Shown: piece by piece, positions 1 to 53,000 of the stretch
Layout of the letters: every line of letters begins with the position of its first letter
How positions within the stretch are numbered: position 1 is the stretch's first letter
Assembly: GCA_023078555.1 (NCBI GenBank)
Contig: CM041198.1
Location: 9,719,836-9,783,835 of the forward strand
Origin: Ulva prolifera
Taxonomy: Eukaryota > Chlorophyta > Ulvophyceae > Ulvales > Ulvaceae
DNA length: 64,000 nucleotides
Reading direction: 5' to 3'
Program-made: the position numbers and the translations under genes
Notes under the pieces: generated by a model
Databases searched by the model: none
The model's input: the letters and a program-made list of their open reading frames with translations, nothing else
Told to the model about the DNA's origin: nothing

Positions 1-2
1 TG

Positions 3-2011
<2,009 letters not shown>

Positions 2012-3534
2012 GGCCTTGACTTTGCACTGTGCAACATGATCTGCATCACACTATAAGCTATTTTTTTTGCAAATTAAATTTATTTGCTCGCCTGATCCTC
2101 TGCCATGCTTCACCATTGTGAGCGCTACAGGTGGAGGTGCCACGCCAATGTAAATCTTTGTTTCAGACACGTTGGATCATGGAAAGATCTACATAGTTGC
2201 CGTTACATGGCAGAATACTGACTACACGCAAGATGTATGTATGTGTACTTGGTCCAGTGCTTTGGAACAGGCTCACATGGCCTCGTGACTGGCAGAACAT
2301 CTATCTGCAAAGCTGTCAGCAAAGCTGTCCAAGACAGTGTTGAGCAATACCCATCTTGCATAAATGGTCAGGAGATCAGCAAATTCTGGAATTGTTCAAT
2401 TCATAGAACATAGAGCGTTACATACATACACACATGGCATAGGAAGCGCGAATTCTGAAGATCAGTGCAGAATAATCAGGGCAGGCTCTGCAAAACGGCT
2501 CCACTGGATCTTCCATGCGGCCGTGCCATTCACAGCAGATACGGCCTCTGAAGATTGCAGTCACACAGAGGCACGGCTGGGAACCACCACACTGATGTAT
2601 CGAGCTCACAATGGATGGAAATCTACAGGGACATTCATGTGATCAAGCTTGTGATCAAGCTTGTTAGGGATTATACATGTTCCGGTCAAAAGCGGCTGTC
2701 TTTGCCAAGAAATCTCGTCCAGCGCCAGCAGGTCTATGAAATGATACACAGGCTTGCGCACCCTTTCAATGCGATGCAAATACCTTTCCGTCAATGGCCT
2801 TGTTGTCAAATTCCCAAGGGCGGGTCTACCATCGCGTCAGCGCATTAAGGCCTGTATACCATGCATCTTCACGGAGCCAGACACGGCCATGTCAGGATGA
2901 AGCTTATACCATATTAGCTTCTGGGCAATTGTCCCGGACGTTGTTCACATACTGCAGTGGAGCACTGATACTACTCGGGCATACACTAACAGGGAATCAC
3001 CTACAGCCGATGCCGGCGATAACAATCAGGTTTTGTATCTGGTAGCGCTCAGTCCAGGATGTGTCAACACTAAGAAACCGACCAAAGTTCCGTTCAGGCT
3101 GTTGGAACCTTTTTGTCATCACTGCGCCTCTTGAGACATATAAACAACGTTGTATAGGGCGGTCCACGGCTTAAGCGCCACACTGACTCATCCAAATGCA
3201 GCACAAGAGATCCAGTTGACATGCAGCATACCAATGATTAGCCTGCACACCAATGATCTGCCTGCCCTGTTGTCGCCGTTCGTCACAACTTTGCACGAAC
3301 ATCCAACCTGCAAAAACATGTTCACTGCGGCACTTCCAAGTGGCTGCAACAGTATAGCATGTTGTGGGAATATGATGATGACCGTGCTTTCGGAAACCCT
3401 GAAATGTCAGAACCAAGCTCATGGCATTGTTTGACAGCTGAGCATACACCACAGAAGCTTCACCACAAAGCCATCTGTGTTCGTACCTCTGCTCACCGTC
3501 TACAGGAAGTCTACCACAGCCCAATTTGGGTTAC
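2012..3534. other. Intergenic region between VPS4 and the pseudouridine synthase
   Basis: No convincing gene was found on either strand; open frames here are short and lack recognisable motifs. A TGTAA motif about 140 bases after the VPS4 stop is a candidate algal polyadenylation signal. A 12-bp direct duplication (TGATCAAGCTTG) lies near 2639-2662. The two flanking genes are convergent, so the region should contain both 3' UTRs. Confidence 0.5.
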
Positions 3535-4649
3535 TCAGATTGATATGTCCAGCGCAAGATGTACCCACGAACCTTCGGCAATCTCCAGGGTGGCCAGATC
3601 TAAGACACCCAGGGAAGCTCTGTGCAACGCATTGACCTTGGTGCCACAGGCAGCAAACATGCGCCTGACCTGATGATACCTGCCTTCCGAAATGCACACA
3701 ACAGCATTCATCTCATCGACAAACTTAATATCTGCGGGCCTGCATGCTTTGGATTCTCCATGGAGCATCATTTCTCCTGACTTAAACGCTAACACCTGCA
3801 AACGCTATGCCTGAAAGGCCTGCGGTATCACTGTCATGATCGGAAGGGGACTTCTGATATTTCGATGTATATCATACGATTCGCACCATGTCTTCCTGTT
3901 GTTGCAAATCAACTGCCGTTTCAAGGGCAACATCATAGCGCTTCGGTACATGACGGTTTGGAGAGGTGAGCTTGTGTACGTAGTCAGTTAGGGTTGTGAC
4001 CAACAGCAATCCACTGGTGTCTTTGTCCAGCCTATATCACGAATATTGGCGTAGTCAGCATGCGTTACCGGGACACGGTGTCGTAGGTACGTGGTAAAGG
4101 TGGCTGCCCCGCAATGTTCGGCAACAACATATGCACACCTCCCAATTGATGTGACTGCTGGCCGCCTCCTCGACCACTGTTGCGGCAACAAATCATAGAC
4201 TAGAGGCCCTTCTTTTGGATCATGCGAGCACGTGTATCCGACTGGCTTGTGGAGCACGGCTAAGATGCCATGTGGACAGTCAACAGGCTGATCGCCGACC
4301 ACCAATCCCTCAATATTCACCTGCAAGCGAGATACAGACCCCTGCGGCACTGACAGCAGACCCTATGCATCGGCATAATTTGAAGGGCACCCGCAGATCT
4401 CGGACCCTACCGCACCTTGGCTGATGGCTTCACGATGGTCGAGCCGTTCACACTGACACTGTGAGTTTTGAGAAAGGACGAGCACTCACTGCGCGTGCAG
4501 TAGCCGAGATTGGATAATGCTCGATCAACACGGACAACCGTGGCTTTTGCGTTCGCTGTGACTGCACGCCTTGGCAGAAGAGCGGGCCCTCTGCATGAAA
4601 GTCGAAAATTGTGTGAATAAATTTCGAAGACGCCGAATTGAGCACACAT
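3535..4649 (-). CDS. RsuA/RluB-family 16S/23S rRNA pseudouridine synthase, probably plastid-targeted
   Basis: Isomerises a uridine in ribosomal RNA to pseudouridine. Phase-consistent exons, read 5' to 3' on the minus strand, are 4649-4416, 4320-4139, 4031-3887 and 3795-3535, giving 273 residues, normal for the family. Residues 1 to about 36 look like a transit peptide (Arg/Ala/Ser, almost no acid). An S4 RNA-binding domain follows (about 39-80, VRVDRALSNLG...VSVNG). Catalytic motif II is SIGRLDKDTSG, with the predicted catalytic Asp at 141; an intron splits the Arg codon two residues before it. The C-terminal EGRYHQVRRMF motif (about 224-234) is diagnostic of the RsuA/RluB/E/F branch. The start is the ATG that gives the leader plus a complete S4 domain. 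In plants the comparable plastid protein is SVR1; a mitochondrial target cannot be excluded. Confidence 0.9.
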
Positions 4650-25356: not shown

Positions 25357-26403
25357 ATGGACAAAGAGTGCAGCTGCTGTCTTTCAGCCGGATCAGGAGG
25401 CACTGGTGCTGAGCAATGCAGTTCAGCTCTACAGAGCCCAGAATCATGTACCGCCTGTCCATTCTTGCTTCCATCAATAGAGGCCCAAGATTTTCTGCAC
25501 ATGACAAGGACTGTGACGACTAACCTGCAGCTTCAGCTGCACATTGAGTGCAGTATGTTGGTATATGCCTGTGCCGGCACACAGATCGGCACATCTGCGG
25601 CACTCATACAGCACACCCAAGGTCACCGTTCTAGAACTGGAGATCACACAGCTCTGAAATCTGAATATGTGGATGCACCTATCTCAAGGACTATGGATGC
25701 CAATATTCAGTTACAGCTGCTGCACATTGCGTGCATGGAGATGGTCTGCGCTTGTGCTGGCACACAATACGGCAAATTTACGGCACTCGCACAGCACACC
25801 CCAGCTCACCACTGTGGAACTGGAGGTCGCACAGCTCTTAAATTTGAATATGTTGATGCACCTGTCTCAAGGAGTATGGCCGCCAATATTCAGCTCCAGC
25901 TGCTGCACATTGCGTGCATGGAGATGGTCTGTGCCTGTGCTGGCACACAATACGGCAAATTTACGGCACTCGCACAGCACACCCCAGCTCACTGCTCTGG
26001 AACTGGAGATCACACATCTCTGACATTTGAATATGTAGATGCACCTGTATCAAGGAGTATGGCTGCCAATATTCAGCTGCAGCTGCTGCACATTGCGTGC
26101 ATGTTGATGGGCCGTGCTTGTGCTGTGCGCACCAGACTCTCGCACAGCGCACCCGTGTTGACATGTACTCATTCCATTGCAGAGGTTACATACTCCGGTA
26201 CCTATGCATGTACATTAAGACCTCGCTCAAGTTTCAATGGTGGGCATGTTGCACTTGCTCTGCTGATGACTGCCAGTTTGTTGCAGAGGCATGTTCTTGC
26301 TCTGCAACGATGTCTGAGCGATGATCGAATTGGACCTCTTGTTTTGGTGGATTGTGTCGAGCTATGTGTAGCGAGGTGCAGCTGTATGCAGCGAGGTGGA
26401 TAG
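25357..26403 (+). CDS. Hypothetical 348-residue open frame built on a 183-bp tandem repeat
   Basis: An uninterrupted frame from ATG 25357 to TAG 26401-26403. Most of it is a tandem array of 61-residue units (containing FEYVDAPVSRSMAANIQLQL and CACAGTQYGKFTALAQHTP), as described for the DNA repeat. The N-terminal 50 residues are Ser/Cys/Gly-rich, with no signal peptide I would trust. Nothing resembles a known domain. A second frame is also open across part of the array, so openness may simply reflect a repeat unit without stops. Translation is unproven. Confidence 0.3.
   Translation: MDKECSCCLSAGSGGTGAEQCSSALQSPESCTACPFLLPSIEAQDFLHMTRTVTTNLQLQLHIECSMLVYACAGTQIGTSAALIQHTQGHRSRTGDHTALKSEYVDAPISRTMDANIQLQLLHIACMEMVCACAGTQYGKFTALAQHTPAHHCGTGGRTALKFEYVDAPVSRSMAANIQLQLLHIACMEMVCACAGTQYGKFTALAQHTPAHCSGTGDHTSLTFEYVDAPVSRSMAANIQLQLLHIACMLMGRACAVRTRLSHSAPVLTCTHSIAEVTYSGTYACTLRPRSSFNGGHVALALLMTASLLQRHVLALQRCLSDDRIGPLVLVDCVELCVARCSCMQRGG
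25517..26120 (+). repeat. 183-bp tandem repeat, about 3.3 units
   Basis: The landmark GAATATGTNGATGCACCT starts at 25663, 25846 and 26029, an exact 183-bp period twice over (61 codons, so frame is kept). A more diverged partial unit precedes at about 25517. Units 2 and 3 are the most alike. Each contains CAGCTGCTGCACATTGCGTG and ACAATACGGCAAATTTACGG blocks. Confidence 0.9.
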
Positions 26404-47055: not shown

Positions 47056-50000
47056 CTACTCGATCAGGTCACTCGGTAGGCACAGCTCCTTGCTGCTCAT
47101 CCGTGCTGGCCTCCTGACTTGGAACTCTGCTGCATGCACATTGAACTCGGACGTCTTACGCTGCGCTTGCGATCCCTCAGACCACTGTGAACCAGCGGCG
47201 CTGCGGACCGACTCCTGCATGATGATGTCAGCCGCGGCAGGCATGCCTTGCGACCCCACCCCCCCCCCGCCCGGATCCATCGCTCCCAACGCCCCCTGGC
47301 CACCGTATGGCACATCCCGCTGCATGAAATTTGGCATGTCCATCAGCCGATAGCCGGCACCCTCGTCACTGCCCTGGCCCTGCCCGCGGTCCGCGATCGC
47401 TTGTGGCTCAGGCAAAGCACTCCACGACGATCCACCAGCGCCAAACACAGATGCTCCCGGCGCGCCAAACGCAAACAGCCCCTGCCCTCCTGCCCGGTCT
47501 AGCCCTGCCAAGCTCGCTGCCGGCGTGTTTGCAGCCGCGGCTGCATGCATGCGGGCGGCCGCAGCGCCGAGGCCGGACATTGTGTCGTGCTCTCGGCGGT
47601 CTGCGGCAGTGCTCGCGGGCGGCGCAAACACCCACAGCCCCCCTGGGTCCGTACCAATGGCCCTCCGTAGATCTTCAGGCCACCGTCCTGCGAGCTCCCC
47701 CACCTGCAGCATCCCGGCCTCCTCTGCTGGGCCCTCTTGCTGCGGCCGCCCCCAGACCGCCGCCTCATCCCCGGGTAGGAGGCCAACACCCCGGTCGCTC
47801 CCATACATGGCCTCATCCCCAACGGCGTAGGTGGCCTGGCTTCGCGGCGATGCCGCGTTGCCGAATGCACCTGGCCGCACATCGTGGCTGAGTCGAGAGG
47901 TGCGCCGAGCACCGTTCCCAGGCAGGCAGGCCCCCCAGTCGAGGCCCGCCCCCACACCCGCAGCCGCGGCGGGCTGCTGTCGAGGCCACAGGTCATCAGC
48001 GAGGGAGTGCCCGGGGCCACCAAGGCTGCGCCCACGCTGCGCGATGGACTCCGTTGCGCAACCGGTGACGGTGGCAGATGGACCATAGCTTGCCGAGCCA
48101 ATCGGAAGGTACTGTCGTGAATCTGGCTGCGCTGACGCGGTTCGCGGAGAGTCGCTATGCCTGGGCAGAAGCATCCCGGAACCCAGCGGAGAGGACGGGG
48201 TGAGCGGCCTTGCGAAGCTCCCTGCCACGGCGGAGGCCGATGGAGTGTGGAGGGAGGACAGCAGCGGGGGTTGCGGGTCGTACGTGGCTGCCTGGGCCGA
48301 ACACACTGGCGCATACGGGGCAGCGCTGGTGGTGAGTGCGTCAGCTGGCGCACCCAGACTAGAAGAGAACGGAAATCGCGCTTGCGAGGTTGCGAACAGG
48401 CTGGCAAGCGAGTCTGCAGCAGCCTGAGCGCCGGACTGGGCGCGGAGGAGCGGGTCGCTCGGACCCTCTGCCAGAGGGCCGGACAATAGGTCGTTTGGGA
48501 TAGCATGGAAGGGCTCTATGATGTCTCGATGACCACTAGCAGCCATCGCTGCGGGCTCGTTGCGCGTGCTAGGTGATAAAGGCTGCAAGGGGGCCAGCGA
48601 GTAGCGTCGGCTGCCGCCGAGCGGGCTGGTCGTGAAAGGGGAAGCGGACGAGGGCGCGGCAGTGGTTGAGGAGCCCCGCTCGGCAGAGGCTGCGGGATCG
48701 GTAGGGCTGGGGGGCGGCTGGCTGCGTGACCGTTCGGTTGCCGCGATCGCGGCAGCTGCGGCGGCGGCCGCCGATGCGGCGGCCTTGCGCGCACGCGCCG
48801 CGTCACGCTCAGCCTTGCGCTCCGCCTCCTGGCGTTCGCGCTCTGCCCGTTCTGCCTGCTCACGCTCCCGTCGCGCTGCCGCTTCCCGTTGCTGCGCCTC
48901 CCGCTTCTGCCTCACCTGCATAAGTCCAGATCGCAGTTCACGCCCAGTCAACCACAGGCCGGCCTGGCATGTTGACAAGGACTGGATTGTCCGAAACACA
49001 CTCAGCTGACTGGTCAAACGGCAGACACTGGTTCTTTGCCTCCATCATGCACACATGTTCAAATGGATATGGCTGTAATCATGCATACATACATACAGTT
49101 TTGTGCCGTTATCGCATGAGACGCATGGTCGCTTGGGACAGCCTGCCATGAATCACTTGAACCGGCTGGCGGAGGTTGCGTCTCGGTGTGGTAAGGTGAA
49201 CCGTGCTTTGTTTGTGACGAATGTTCTGCGCCGGTTGAGTGTGGCGTTGTGCAAGGGGAACGCTCTTGTGCTCCGTGCGGGGCTTCAATCTTTGGCTGGC
49301 ATCACCGGCCGAGCTGTGGTACGTGCTCGTACCCGGCCTAGTGCCATGACTGCGTGAGTGGATTTGCGTGTGTATTCCTGACAACGGCTCGCTGCCCGGC
49401 CTCTGTCCTTTATAACTACATACAGCACCTCTGTCCTTTGTAACTACATAGAGCCCCTCCCAATGCAGTCGGCTCGCGCTGCGGATGTGGCACATTCATA
49501 CAGCCGCATGACCTCGACCACACGATGAATTGCACACACAATGCGGGGACCTGGACTTCGCGCCACAATATCGTTGAAAAACTATGGCGCGAGATCGGGT
49601 CCCACGCATGTGTGGCATCCACGCGCATCCCGCGCACAGCGCCTTTCGTCCGCGCGCGGCTCGCAGCCGCTCCGAGGCAGATCCATGCTGGCCCGCCGTG
49701 TCCGCCCCCTGCTCCGCCCCAGCCCGCCTCCCAGATCGCCCGCCTCCCAGATCGCGGGCCATTTGTGCGGGGCGACCTTGCCCGCGGAGCCGATGCCTGC
49801 AGCCCCGCCGCCGCTGCCGGTCGCGCGTGCGGACGCGGCGCCGGGACCTGCGACTGCTCCGGCTGCCGACGCCGATGCTGGACGCCCAGATGGGGCGCCA
49901 CGCGCCAGACGCAGCGCAGGCTGCGGCCCTGGCGGCGGCAGCGGCGCCGGGTGGCTAGGATCCGGCAGGGCCTGGGGAGCAGGCCGCTGCCGCACAGGCG

Positions 50001-53000
50001 ACGGCGCTGGAGCGGGTGTTCAGGGCGGTGGCCCAGGAGAAACTGGGGGACATCATGTTTATGCCGCCGGATGACGCTTTGTGCATAGGAGATGTGTTGG
50101 ATGTGAACCCCTGTGCTGATTCCTATTGCGGCCGTGCGGCCCGAGAGGACGGGGGTGCTGCGGAGACGCAGGGACGTGCAGAAACTCACTGCTTATCGTT
50201 TGTACGACCCTGATGCGTATAGTTTTGTGCCGTTATCGCATGAGATGCATGGTCGCTTGGGACGGCCTGCCATGAATCACTTGAATCGGCTGGCGGAGGT
50301 TGCGTCTCGGTGTGGTAAGGTGAACCGTGCTTTGTTTGTGACGAATGATCTGCGCCGGTTGAGTGTGGCTTTGTGCAAAGGGAATGCTTTTGTGCTCCGT
50401 GCGGGGCTTCAATCCTTTGTTGGTATTACCGGCAGGGCGATGGTGCGCGCTCGTGCGCGGCCTAGTGCCATGACTGAGTGAGTGGATTTGCGAGTGGGTT
50501 CCGAGCAACGGCTCGATGCCCGGCCTCTGTCCTTTGTAACTACATACATACATGCGGGACATGCAGAAACGCAATGCATATCGTGCGTATGACCCTGATG
50601 CATATGACTTGGTGCCGTTGTCGCATGAGACGCATGGTCGCTTGGGACAGCCTGCCATGGATCATTTGAATCGGCTGGCGGAGGTTGCGTCTCGGTGTGG
50701 TGTGTTGGACCATGGTGTGTTTGTGACGAATGCTTTGCGCCGGTTGAGTGTGGCGTTGTGCATAGGGAATGCTTATGGGCTCCGTGCGGGGCTTCAATCT
50801 TTGACTGGAATGACCGGAAGGGATGTGGTAAGCGCTCGGGCCCGGCCTAGTGCCACGAATGAGTGAGTAGCTTTGCGAGTGGACTCCGAGAACCGGCTTC
50901 ATGCCCGGCCTCTGTCCTTTGTAACCAAATACATATGGTATGGCATGGCCGGTAGGGCTGTGGTGCGAGCTCGTGCCCGGCCTAGTGCCATGAATGTGCT
51001 TTGTAGATACATACATATGGCCTAGTGCCATGAATGAATAAGTAGGTTTGCGAATGGATTCCGAGGACCGGCAGCATGCCCGGCTTCTGTCCTTTGTCAG
51101 TACATATATACACAGCAAGGTCTGTGCGTGCCATTCGTATAGCCTGCAGCCGCCGCCCACGGCTGCGCTGCAGCCATAAATCTAACAGAGATTGCCTCCA
51201 TTAGGCACATTGCACGCGCTGTCCCTTGGAAGCTGCACACAGGGGTGCGCACCGCTTCCGCCTTCTCTGCCTCAATCCGCTTCACCTCCGCCTCCAACTT
51301 GGCCATGTCCGTCAGCGCACGTCCAACGAGCACCAGCAGCGCGTCACTGCGCTCCGCGAGGCTTGTCAGCTCCGCCATGTCCACTCCTGCCACCAGCGCC
51401 GATGCCTCCTCCTCAGCCATAGGCTGCCTGAACACCACTCCCGCCGCAATGGCGCGCCGCCGCAGCTCCCCATCCCCCGGCGCCGCCCCGCTCTCTGACA
51501 ACGCCCGCCCAGATGAGGACCCCTTGAGGCCGCCCTTGCTGCCTTTTCGCGCCTTCCCTGGAGCCCCCGCAGCCTCGTCCGTGCCCGAATCTCCCGCCGT
51601 CGAAGGCCTGCTGACCTCCTGCCCCCTTCCGACGTCTACCGCAGGCCCACTGCCGGCTGCTGCGCAGCTATTGCCCTGTGTCGGTGCCTCTGCCGCCGCA
51701 GCGGCGTCTTCGATGGCTTGAAACATCGGCAGCCCCGGAGGCGGCTGCTGCATGTGGCACGCGGTGACATACTGCACAAGCTCCCGACTCGCGAGCAGCT
51801 CCTGGGCACGTTCCAAGGACGATCGCAGCATCGACAGCTGCATTGCCACGGCCACAGATGTGTTCTGGTGATTGAGTGCGCTCTCCAGGCTCGCATGAGC
51901 GTCGGTCGCCTGCAGCATGCGCAGCCGCACTGCTGCCGCCCGCACGAGCGGGTAGCAGATGCCGGCGGCCTCCGCCGCGTTGATGCGCGCCTGCAGCGTT
52001 GACACCAGCGACGCCTGCTCCACGGAGCTGCTCTGGGGTGACAGTGCGGCCTCAAGGTTCTGCAGCACCTGCACAGCAAGCCCGCGGCGTGTGTGCTCTG
52101 CATCTTTGCAAGAACTTAGGCAATGCTGTGTGCACATGAAGCGGACGCGGGCGCTTTGCCTCCTGGATGCGTGTGCAGGTACCAGCTGACCACACTCCCG
52201 AAATGTGAGCTCGGCGAGAACGGCGTATGCTGTATGAGTTGGACGCACGCCGTAACTATTGCAAAGCAGGCTGAAAGAGTAGCAGCAGCATTGCCAGAAA
52301 AGCCACGACAGGCCTGTTCACGCCACACCTTGAGGGTCCGCTTGGCTGTGGCGACTTTCACGCCGGCTGTGGATGCCTCCTGGATGGCACGTGCGAGCTG
52401 TGCTGTGGACGCGCCGTCGCGCAGCACGCGCTGCAGCTTTGCATCGCTCGCTGTGAGCGCCTGCCACTGCTCCACGCGCTTGCGCGCTGCCTTCACTGCG
52501 TCTGCGAGTAGTTCCGTGGCGCCCTTGGAGGCCTCGACGGCGGCCAGCGCAGACTCCACCGCGTCCACGTCTTCCCGCCGCTGCCCGCGCTCCAGTGTGC
52601 GCATCGCCAGCTCCAACTGCGAGCGCAACTGCATGCAGCAGTGCGTCAGAGACAGCGTGCGCCACATAGGTTGCCGACGCACAGCCTCCACACAGCATGT
52701 GGTTCAATGAGGCCCACTTGGCCAGCCTCAAGTCATAGCAGGCGCAACGCATCGACAACTACAGTGACACGTTGCGGTATGCTCGACTGAGTGCAAACCA
52801 TGCATGGTAGCAGCTCTGACAAATATGCGACATAAGAGGACGCAAGAAGATATTGCGGGTTGTTGAAGGGGGTTCGCAGCACACATGACATATTGCGGAG
52901 CAGATTGCATACCCGAAATGCATGTGCGAGGCGCTCGCGCAACTCCGCCGCCGCTGCATAGCTTGCCGGGTCCAAGCTTTCGGCACCGACCTTCTTCGCT

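Follow-up and report, generated by a model that had tools for sequence, protein, structure and literature searches.

A LINE of Ulva prolifera with a probable preference for the CATA tails of earlier insertions

The window, a 64,000-nt stretch of contig C3 of Ulva prolifera, contains six 5′-truncated copies of a single LINE, here called Y, all facing one direction (49098–51112), in agreement with the initial annotation, which had counted five or six such copies. Unit boundaries are given to within ~10 nt, with one long genomic copy of Y (positions 1–4153) as the reference. Unit 1 (49098–49427, plus strand) covers reference 3821–4153 at 96% BLAST identity and ends in the tail ACTACATACAGCA. Unit 2 (49428–49451, plus) starts at ~4126 and consists of only the last bases of Y and a tail, its ~24–28 nt being insufficient for an identity rating. 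Unit 3 (49452–50553, plus; reference 3069–4153, 91% BLAST identity) and unit 4 (50554–50940, plus; reference 3777–4153, 85%) are each followed by a tail. Unit 5 (50941–51018, plus; reference 4029–4084, 86%) has an internal deletion and the tail GATACATACATAT, and unit 6 (51019–51112, plus; reference 4067–4153, 77%) leads into a tail and then the flank CAGCAAGG. For unit 3, an origin by internal deletion rather than 5′ truncation was rejected, as its start matches reference 3069 directly.

A CATA-like tail closes every unit, and the next unit starts within the preceding tail or at its edge. The earlier claim that each 5′ break lies in the CATA tail of the previous copy therefore holds for the later junctions but not for the first (CATACATACATACAG followed by TTTTGTGCCG), where the CATA tract is the end of a 42-nt stub of another element, X, and not of an earlier Y. 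This stub (49055–49096, plus) comprises approximately the last 28 nt of the X body and a CATA tail. Its alignment to the X 3′ end scores 67, whereas none of 1,000 shuffles exceeds 29; after removal of most of the CATA tract, the score is 35 and the highest shuffle score 24. Judging from this alignment, the X stub is the founding target of the window array.

The whole array is enclosed by a predicted host-gene intron on the minus strand (48916–51252; GT…AG, 2,337 nt, phase 0), with GT at 51252/51251 and AG at 48917/48916. Splicing would fuse two open frames, with KAEA/VRQK at the joint, and the product would be coiled-coil-like; the array is antisense to this predicted gene, for which a Pfam search gave no family name. 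The splice dinucleotides and joined frame support the earlier placement of the array as interstitial, in an intron of a large gene, and it lies at 9.77 of the 12.4 Mb of C3.

Y is a non-LTR retrotransposon (LINE) of ~4.15 kb, with a reverse transcriptase ORF, 5′-truncated copies, a 3′ tail and variable target-site duplications. Its 1,202-aa open frame matches RVT_1 (E = 8.4e-11), and in a phmmer comparison with solved chains that took in few LINE structures, the best matches of the reverse transcriptase are R2Tg (1.1e-5) and R2 (2.7e-5) versus 0.66 for human LINE-1 ORF2, making R2-type enzymes the most similar among the chains compared. At the N-terminus, a C2H2 match is weak and under the cut-off (E = 0.52), and the C-terminal 373 aa have no match in Pfam. 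By eye, the C-terminus contains CxC...H...C and D...DVSVV...QKR, which may correspond to the CCHC and PD-(D/E)XK endonuclease motifs. A single-sequence structure model reached a mean pLDDT of 38.9, a quality insufficient for a fold search. The genome contains 26 matches to the Y 5′ end versus 1,388 to its 3′-end 22-mer (at ≤2 mismatches; the reversed pattern gave 0), the latter being common to Y and a partner, Y′, which shares only the last 66 nt of Y. Short Y and Y′ units are indistinguishable because of this common end, while 15 units have clear Y′-specific sequence.

X could likewise be a LINE, as suggested by its truncated copies, its CATA tail and a reading of its protein by eye; this protein had no Pfam match, and a PDB search yielded nothing useful. 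We considered whether X is a part of Y and rejected this: X is absent from the 4,153-nt Y reference, its own frame ends at the tail, and at C1:11120299 it occurs without Y directly behind it. Moreover, the Y or Y′ copies behind 27 X tails all differ in start position, so X and Y do not form one composite element. The assembly contains 156 X ends. Of 17 on contig C1 (≤1 mismatch), 11 were classified by eye: Y is directly downstream in 10 (9 in retrieved DNA, 1 from positions) and none is in view in 1.

Beyond the window, Y prefers CATA tails, and this preference is strongly supported. The only sample picked irrespective of neighbours consists of the first 100 exact Y 3′-end matches listed, all on C1, whereas loci L001–L030 are best matches and skewed to young copies. 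The 5′ junction is visible in 68 of the 100, and longer copies are more often among the 32 anchors lost for want of a visible 5′ end. Of these 68 junctions, 25 are in a Y tail, 5 in a Y′ tail and 11 in an X tail, while 14 adjoin other CATACATAC-like DNA (≥8 of 9 matching within 45 nt; background, 16/2,440 windows) and 13 adjoin none. A recognised tail or CATACATAC-like neighbour is thus present at 55/68 junctions, as for a microsatellite-targeting element, although the target is not strict, since 13/68 junctions are without CATA-like DNA. Random founder sites were also considered and rejected, the upstream flanks of many presumed solo Y copies being the X 3′ end. On the upstream side of X itself, we find a recognised tail in 0/32 cases and CATACATAC-like DNA in 0/32. 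Genome-wide, at least 14 of the 26 Y 5′ ends listed have a Y or X tail no more than 100 nt upstream of them (expected, 0.02), a lower bound because the tails were chosen by hand among the matches listed. The excess of tail junctions suspected from the window array is therefore seen in other copies as well, both in the C1 sample and among the 26 listed 5′ ends. As for the proposal that the element targets its own 3′ tail, the preference for CATA tails stands, but the wording is too narrow, as X and Y′ tails and other CATA-like sites are also used.

The insertions are strongly oriented. Over 132 Y/Y′ junctions, the orientation is forward in 79 and reverse in 2, and among the 47 sites outside recognised tails, CATA-like sites are forward in 23 versus reverse in 2. 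Close Y neighbours on C1 (<1.5 kb, among the 100 listed exact matches) form 28 pairs, 27 of them on the same strand, where the expected fraction of neighbours within 1.5 kb is ~2.3%. These 100 anchors are spread along the 12.7-Mb contig between 0.43 and 11.19 Mb, and one telomere-type pattern that we tried gave no match. Runs of CATACATACATA on C1 are X or Y tails in 40/59 cases; the other 19/59 lie away from any recognised tail, and such sites on this contig are thus not confined to tails. Counting CATACATACATA offers no valid control, because the reversed pattern is the same repeat. The genome contains a single exact (CATA)6.

Target-site duplications vary across the 132 Y/Y′ junctions: 60 have no exact duplication of ≥9 nt, 47 have only the CATA match expected from the tail, and in 25 the duplication extends ≥3 nt beyond the CATA run (4 of these 25 only repeat element-end sequence). 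Past X tails, we observe the duplications CATACATACATACACCCTC at C1:1770866 and TACATACATGCCCGCCCCCCCCT at C1:11175859, the second of which takes in the start of the next Y, and at C1:1825800 a duplication of ~97 nt adjoins a degenerate X end. As some duplications extend into the flank or the start of the following copy, those represent insertions into existing DNA. Divergence gives no uniform order of insertion: comparing the two members of 17 adjacent Y pairs, we find the upstream one less diverged in 11, more diverged in 5 and tied in 1.

Our main reading, to which we assign a probability of roughly 0.77, is that Y favours CATA-like DNA for integration, and most of all the CATA tails that earlier insertions carry at their 3′ ends. 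We infer that the target is the CATA-like DNA carried by X, Y and Y′ tails, and that targeting could proceed as follows. An endonuclease would nick the strand opposite (T)ACATAC, and the freed 3′ end (...GTATGT) would pair with the CATA tail of the Y RNA. Reverse transcription would begin at this pairing and mostly halt early, after which the Y 5′ end would be joined at short homologies. Each insertion would then renew the target with a new CATA tail, allowing arrays to grow, while X would seed ordinary DNA with new founding sites. The window array would have begun with X entering the intron, followed by six Y copies into the X tail region. We also lean, with less confidence, towards regarding the whole as a two-tier mobile-element community, in which an R2-like LINE homes to X, Y′ and its own tails, so that the elements themselves would create and replenish most of the target.

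Other processes could also yield head-to-tail units. R2 enzymes are capable of end-to-end jumping, and in template jumping the enzyme would switch templates, passing from one RNA onto another (that of X, Y or Y′) at its tail end, such that the units arrive in one event. Such a process fits head-to-tail arrays in which units can be very short and tails join bodies directly. It also fits, and may explain, the 47/132 junctions with CATA sequence alone. We nevertheless consider it improbable as the general explanation, because some junctions have duplicated flank, or the start of the following copy, between the upstream tail and the inserted copy, because neighbours differ in divergence (e.g., 0 versus 10 of 83 positions, and 12 versus 1 of 141), and because it leaves unexplained the 14/68 Y copies beside CATA-like DNA without a recognised upstream element. 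Tandem duplication or unequal exchange of a truncated 3′ end, which would require no new retrotransposition, is a quite unlikely general source. Adjacent Y pairs share a 5′ start (≤5 nt) in 0/17 distinct cases, the downstream copy is longer than the upstream in 7/17, and in 14/17 the downstream unit is closer to another copy than to its neighbour; nor can duplication create X–Y junctions. It may, however, account for equal-length units at some other loci, such as C3:2016222–2016829 (two 303-bp matches to the identical part of the query) and the equal-unit arrays at C1:5289748 and C1:4491261–4491345. Two pairs with no closer copy also fit it, one with 1 difference in 829 positions and 6 shared changes, the other with 2 differences in 108 positions and 2 shared changes. 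The view that the units are separate insertions is thus upheld insofar as the 17 tested pairs did not arise mainly by tandem duplication.

Finally, Y might insert widely and persist mostly in harmless sites, such as old element tails. The 13/68 C1 junctions without CATA-like DNA are in line with such tolerance, but a filter of this kind would permit both orientations and any position within an element, whereas we observe tails in a single orientation (27/28 close pairs; 79 versus 2 junctions), making this very unlikely. If Y indeed favours CATA-like DNA, the system offers a natural, countable test of tail–target pairing in the guidance of LINE insertion, with the tails of a second family as frequent founding sites. 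One family landing in the insertions of another could divert new copies from undamaged genes.

Several known systems resemble this one in part. HeT-A/TART and the Giardia arrays are telomeric LINEs stacked head to tail, and Waldo targets ACAY repeats. Unlike HeT-A/TART and the Giardia arrays, those of Y are within chromosome arms, and their founders often belong to another family. A table of 3′ repeats includes (CATA)n among green algal L1 elements (Ohshima 2013, PMC3747384), and X could be such an element; one family inserting into the tail of another is not described there for the (CATA)n-tailed families. A limited literature search likewise found no account of a LINE entering another family's tail.

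Zepp and ZeppL are L1 elements for which Craig et al. describe insertion into existing copies (PMC8226300). They form nested, same-direction, mostly 3′-end copies in Chlorella, Coccomyxa and Chlamydomonas and are found at centromeres, with one cluster per chromosome in Coccomyxa (PMC8226300; Blanc et al. PMC3446292). Y shares with them nested insertion into existing copies, and the likeness to Zepp drawn by the initial annotation is apt for array structure but less so for the enzyme, which best matches R2-type enzymes in a comparison made with human LINE-1. Y also differs in using the tails of another family and in its distribution, its anchors occurring all along C1 among the matches listed rather than being confined to telomeres or centromeres. 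Self-nesting LINEs of green algae have been linked to centromeres and telomeres; Y, which has an R2-like enzyme, behaves similarly at sites scattered along chromosome arms. In enzyme and target, Y is like the microsatellite-targeting RLE LINEs Dong, some HERO and Togen, which insert into simple repeats by means of enzymes of the R2 group or related to it (PMC4640811, PMC3636483); it differs from them in that its target is largely element-made, as seen in the proportion of CATACATACATA runs on C1 that are X or Y tails.

Six units of Y, the ~4.15-kb R2-like LINE with a CATA-like 3' tail, lie on the plus strand of the window (49098–51112), all cut at the 5' end and all closing with a CATA-like tail, much as the initial annotation had described: 5'-truncated copies of one element facing the same way. 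Identity to one long genomic Y copy is 96% for unit 1, 91% for unit 3, 85% for unit 4, 86% for unit 5 and 77% for unit 6, the length of unit 2 allowing no rating; the units therefore differ in age or subfamily. The claimed intron location is also supported, with the whole array enclosed by a predicted minus-strand intron (48916–51252) whose GT-AG boundaries join two open frames in phase 0. Upstream of unit 1 is a 42-nt stub (49055–49096) of a second family with a CATA tail, X, which ends in TAATCATGCATACATACATAC. The window reads ...CATACATACATACAG at this X tail, and ATACACAGCAAGG follows the last Y unit; an ancestral site made of an X tail plus CAAGG or a similar sequence would fit this. Elsewhere in the window (25536–26125), a 183-nt unit is repeated in tandem (~3.2 copies, 87% matches).

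The Y copy within C1:11123408–11129908 is 4,153 nt long and retains an intact 1,202-residue frame, which matches the Pfam reverse transcriptase (E = 8.4e-11); a C2H2 finger match (E = 0.52) falls under the Pfam cut-off. Among solved chains, R2 retrotransposon proteins rank best (1.1e-5 and 2.7e-5), with LINE-1 ORF2 at 0.66. The C-terminal region matches no family in a Pfam search, and its CxC...H...C and D...DVSVV...QKR pattern, as read by eye, may be like that of R2-group endonucleases. A 22-mer from the Y 3' end has 1,388 genome matches at ≤2 mismatches (reversed control, 0), a count that covers both Y and its partner unit Y' because the 3' end is common to both, while a 25-mer from the Y 5' end has 26 (control, 0). 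Most copies are therefore 5'-truncated, the exact share not being readable from 26 versus 1,388. The 100 exact 3'-end matches listed are spread over contig C1 from 0.43 to 11.19 Mb and include 28 neighbour pairs within 1.5 kb, 27 of them on the same strand.

The downstream side was fetched for all 100 of these C1 matches, and the 5' junction is in view for 68. A junction in the element's own tail, as first proposed, is seen at 25 of the 68, but another 11 lie in X tails, like the first unit in the window with its preceding X stub, and 5 in Y' tails. A further 14 adjoin some other stretch matching CATACATAC (≥8 of 9, within 45 nt), and 13 have none of these. Across 132 fetched Y/Y' junctions, which take in biased loci, the CATACATAC match is forward at 79 and reverse at 2, and the 47 outside recognised tails still give 23 and 2, respectively; the background in 2,440 element-free windows is 16 forward and 19 reverse. 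Of 26 Y 5' ends, at least 14 have one of the listed tails ≤100 nt upstream. The genome contains exact (CATA)6 a single time, and the 59 CATACATACATA runs on C1 fall in X tails (20), Y tails (20) or neither (19). One Y tail (C1:1731547) has turned into a long (TA)n run rather than CATA. At C1:9397533–9397663, the reverse complement of the X 3' end and short repeated filler separate a Y tail from a full-length Y start, and CATA-rich filler is also found at other full-length Y starts.

A 34-mer from the X 3' end has 156 genome matches at ≤3 mismatches (control, 0), and X copies have many 5' truncation points and, in the 13 looked at, mutually unlike flanks. None of the 32 X copies with 5' context stands behind a recognised tail, and none has CATACATAC-like DNA within 45 nt upstream; X therefore enters ordinary DNA and Y enters the X tail, insertion of X into a Y tail not being seen among these 32. 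Among the 13, a minus-strand X copy (C9:3552791–3556172) has an inverted X fragment at its own 5' end, as in twin priming. At 71 nt from its start, contig C3 carries an X 3' end. A single telomere-type pattern (three CCCTAAA units, ≤1 extra base) was searched for across the whole genome and gave no match. The 935-nt Y' has only the last 66 nt of Y in common, at 94%, which resembles the SINE–LINE tail pairs treated in a review (PMC3747384). Y' is likely a non-autonomous partner of Y, whose enzyme would mobilise it. Complete or near-complete Y' units (~930 nt, 96–100% to the reference copy, itself one of them) lie in tails beside full-length Y at C1:10896646–10908423 and C1:11175859–11189514 (loci L062, L063, L069 and L070).

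Such arrays could also grow by tandem duplication or template jumping. None of the 17 distinct adjacent Y pairs has a common 5' start, the downstream copy is the longer in 7, and the downstream unit of 14 pairs resembles some third copy more closely than it does its upstream neighbour. In the remaining three, the pairs at C1:11175859 and C4:1253635 are highly alike and possibly duplicated, while that at C1:4158900 differs at 10/83 positions; the equal-sized units at C3:2016222, C1:5289748 and C1:4491261 may be duplications as well. The upstream copy is less diverged in 11 pairs, more in 5 and tied in 1, so that divergence does not settle insertion order.

At 72 of the 132 junctions, the 5' flank has an exact match of ≥9 nt in the DNA that follows the tail, consisting of CATA only in 47. 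In the other 25, the match extends ≥3 nt past the CATA run; 17 have CAT in the first six bases, and 4 are mere element-end repeats. At C1:1770866, the order is X tail, ACCCTC, Y, tail and ACCCTC again, while at C1:4158900 and C1:11175859 the target duplication includes the first bases of the downstream Y already there. At C1:1825800–1826850 (around position 527), an unusually long duplication (~97 nt, one mismatch) has Y between its two copies and adjoins a degenerate X 3' end. These four require a tail already present in the DNA when Y arrived, and they are the clearest cases for reading the junctions as insertion rather than duplication or template jumping.

Insertion would be explained most simply by target-primed reverse transcription: a nick would be made opposite (T)ACATAC, and the resulting primer end could base-pair with the CATA tail of the Y RNA. 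This would predict the orientation, CATA at the duplication start, X, Y and Y' tails all serving as sites, and a target that is renewed. The DNA pattern alone is observed, and we infer the nick, the RNA–DNA pairing and the enzyme class. Microsatellite targets are reported for R2-group LINEs (PMC4640811, PMC3636483), and green algal L1s are listed with (CATA)n tails (PMC3747384). Y is also like Zepp and ZeppL, for which PMC8226300 and PMC3446292 report nested self-insertion, in that its copies are nested in this way. Regular seeding of one LINE family by the tails of another, as proposed here for Y and X, was not found in the literature searched.
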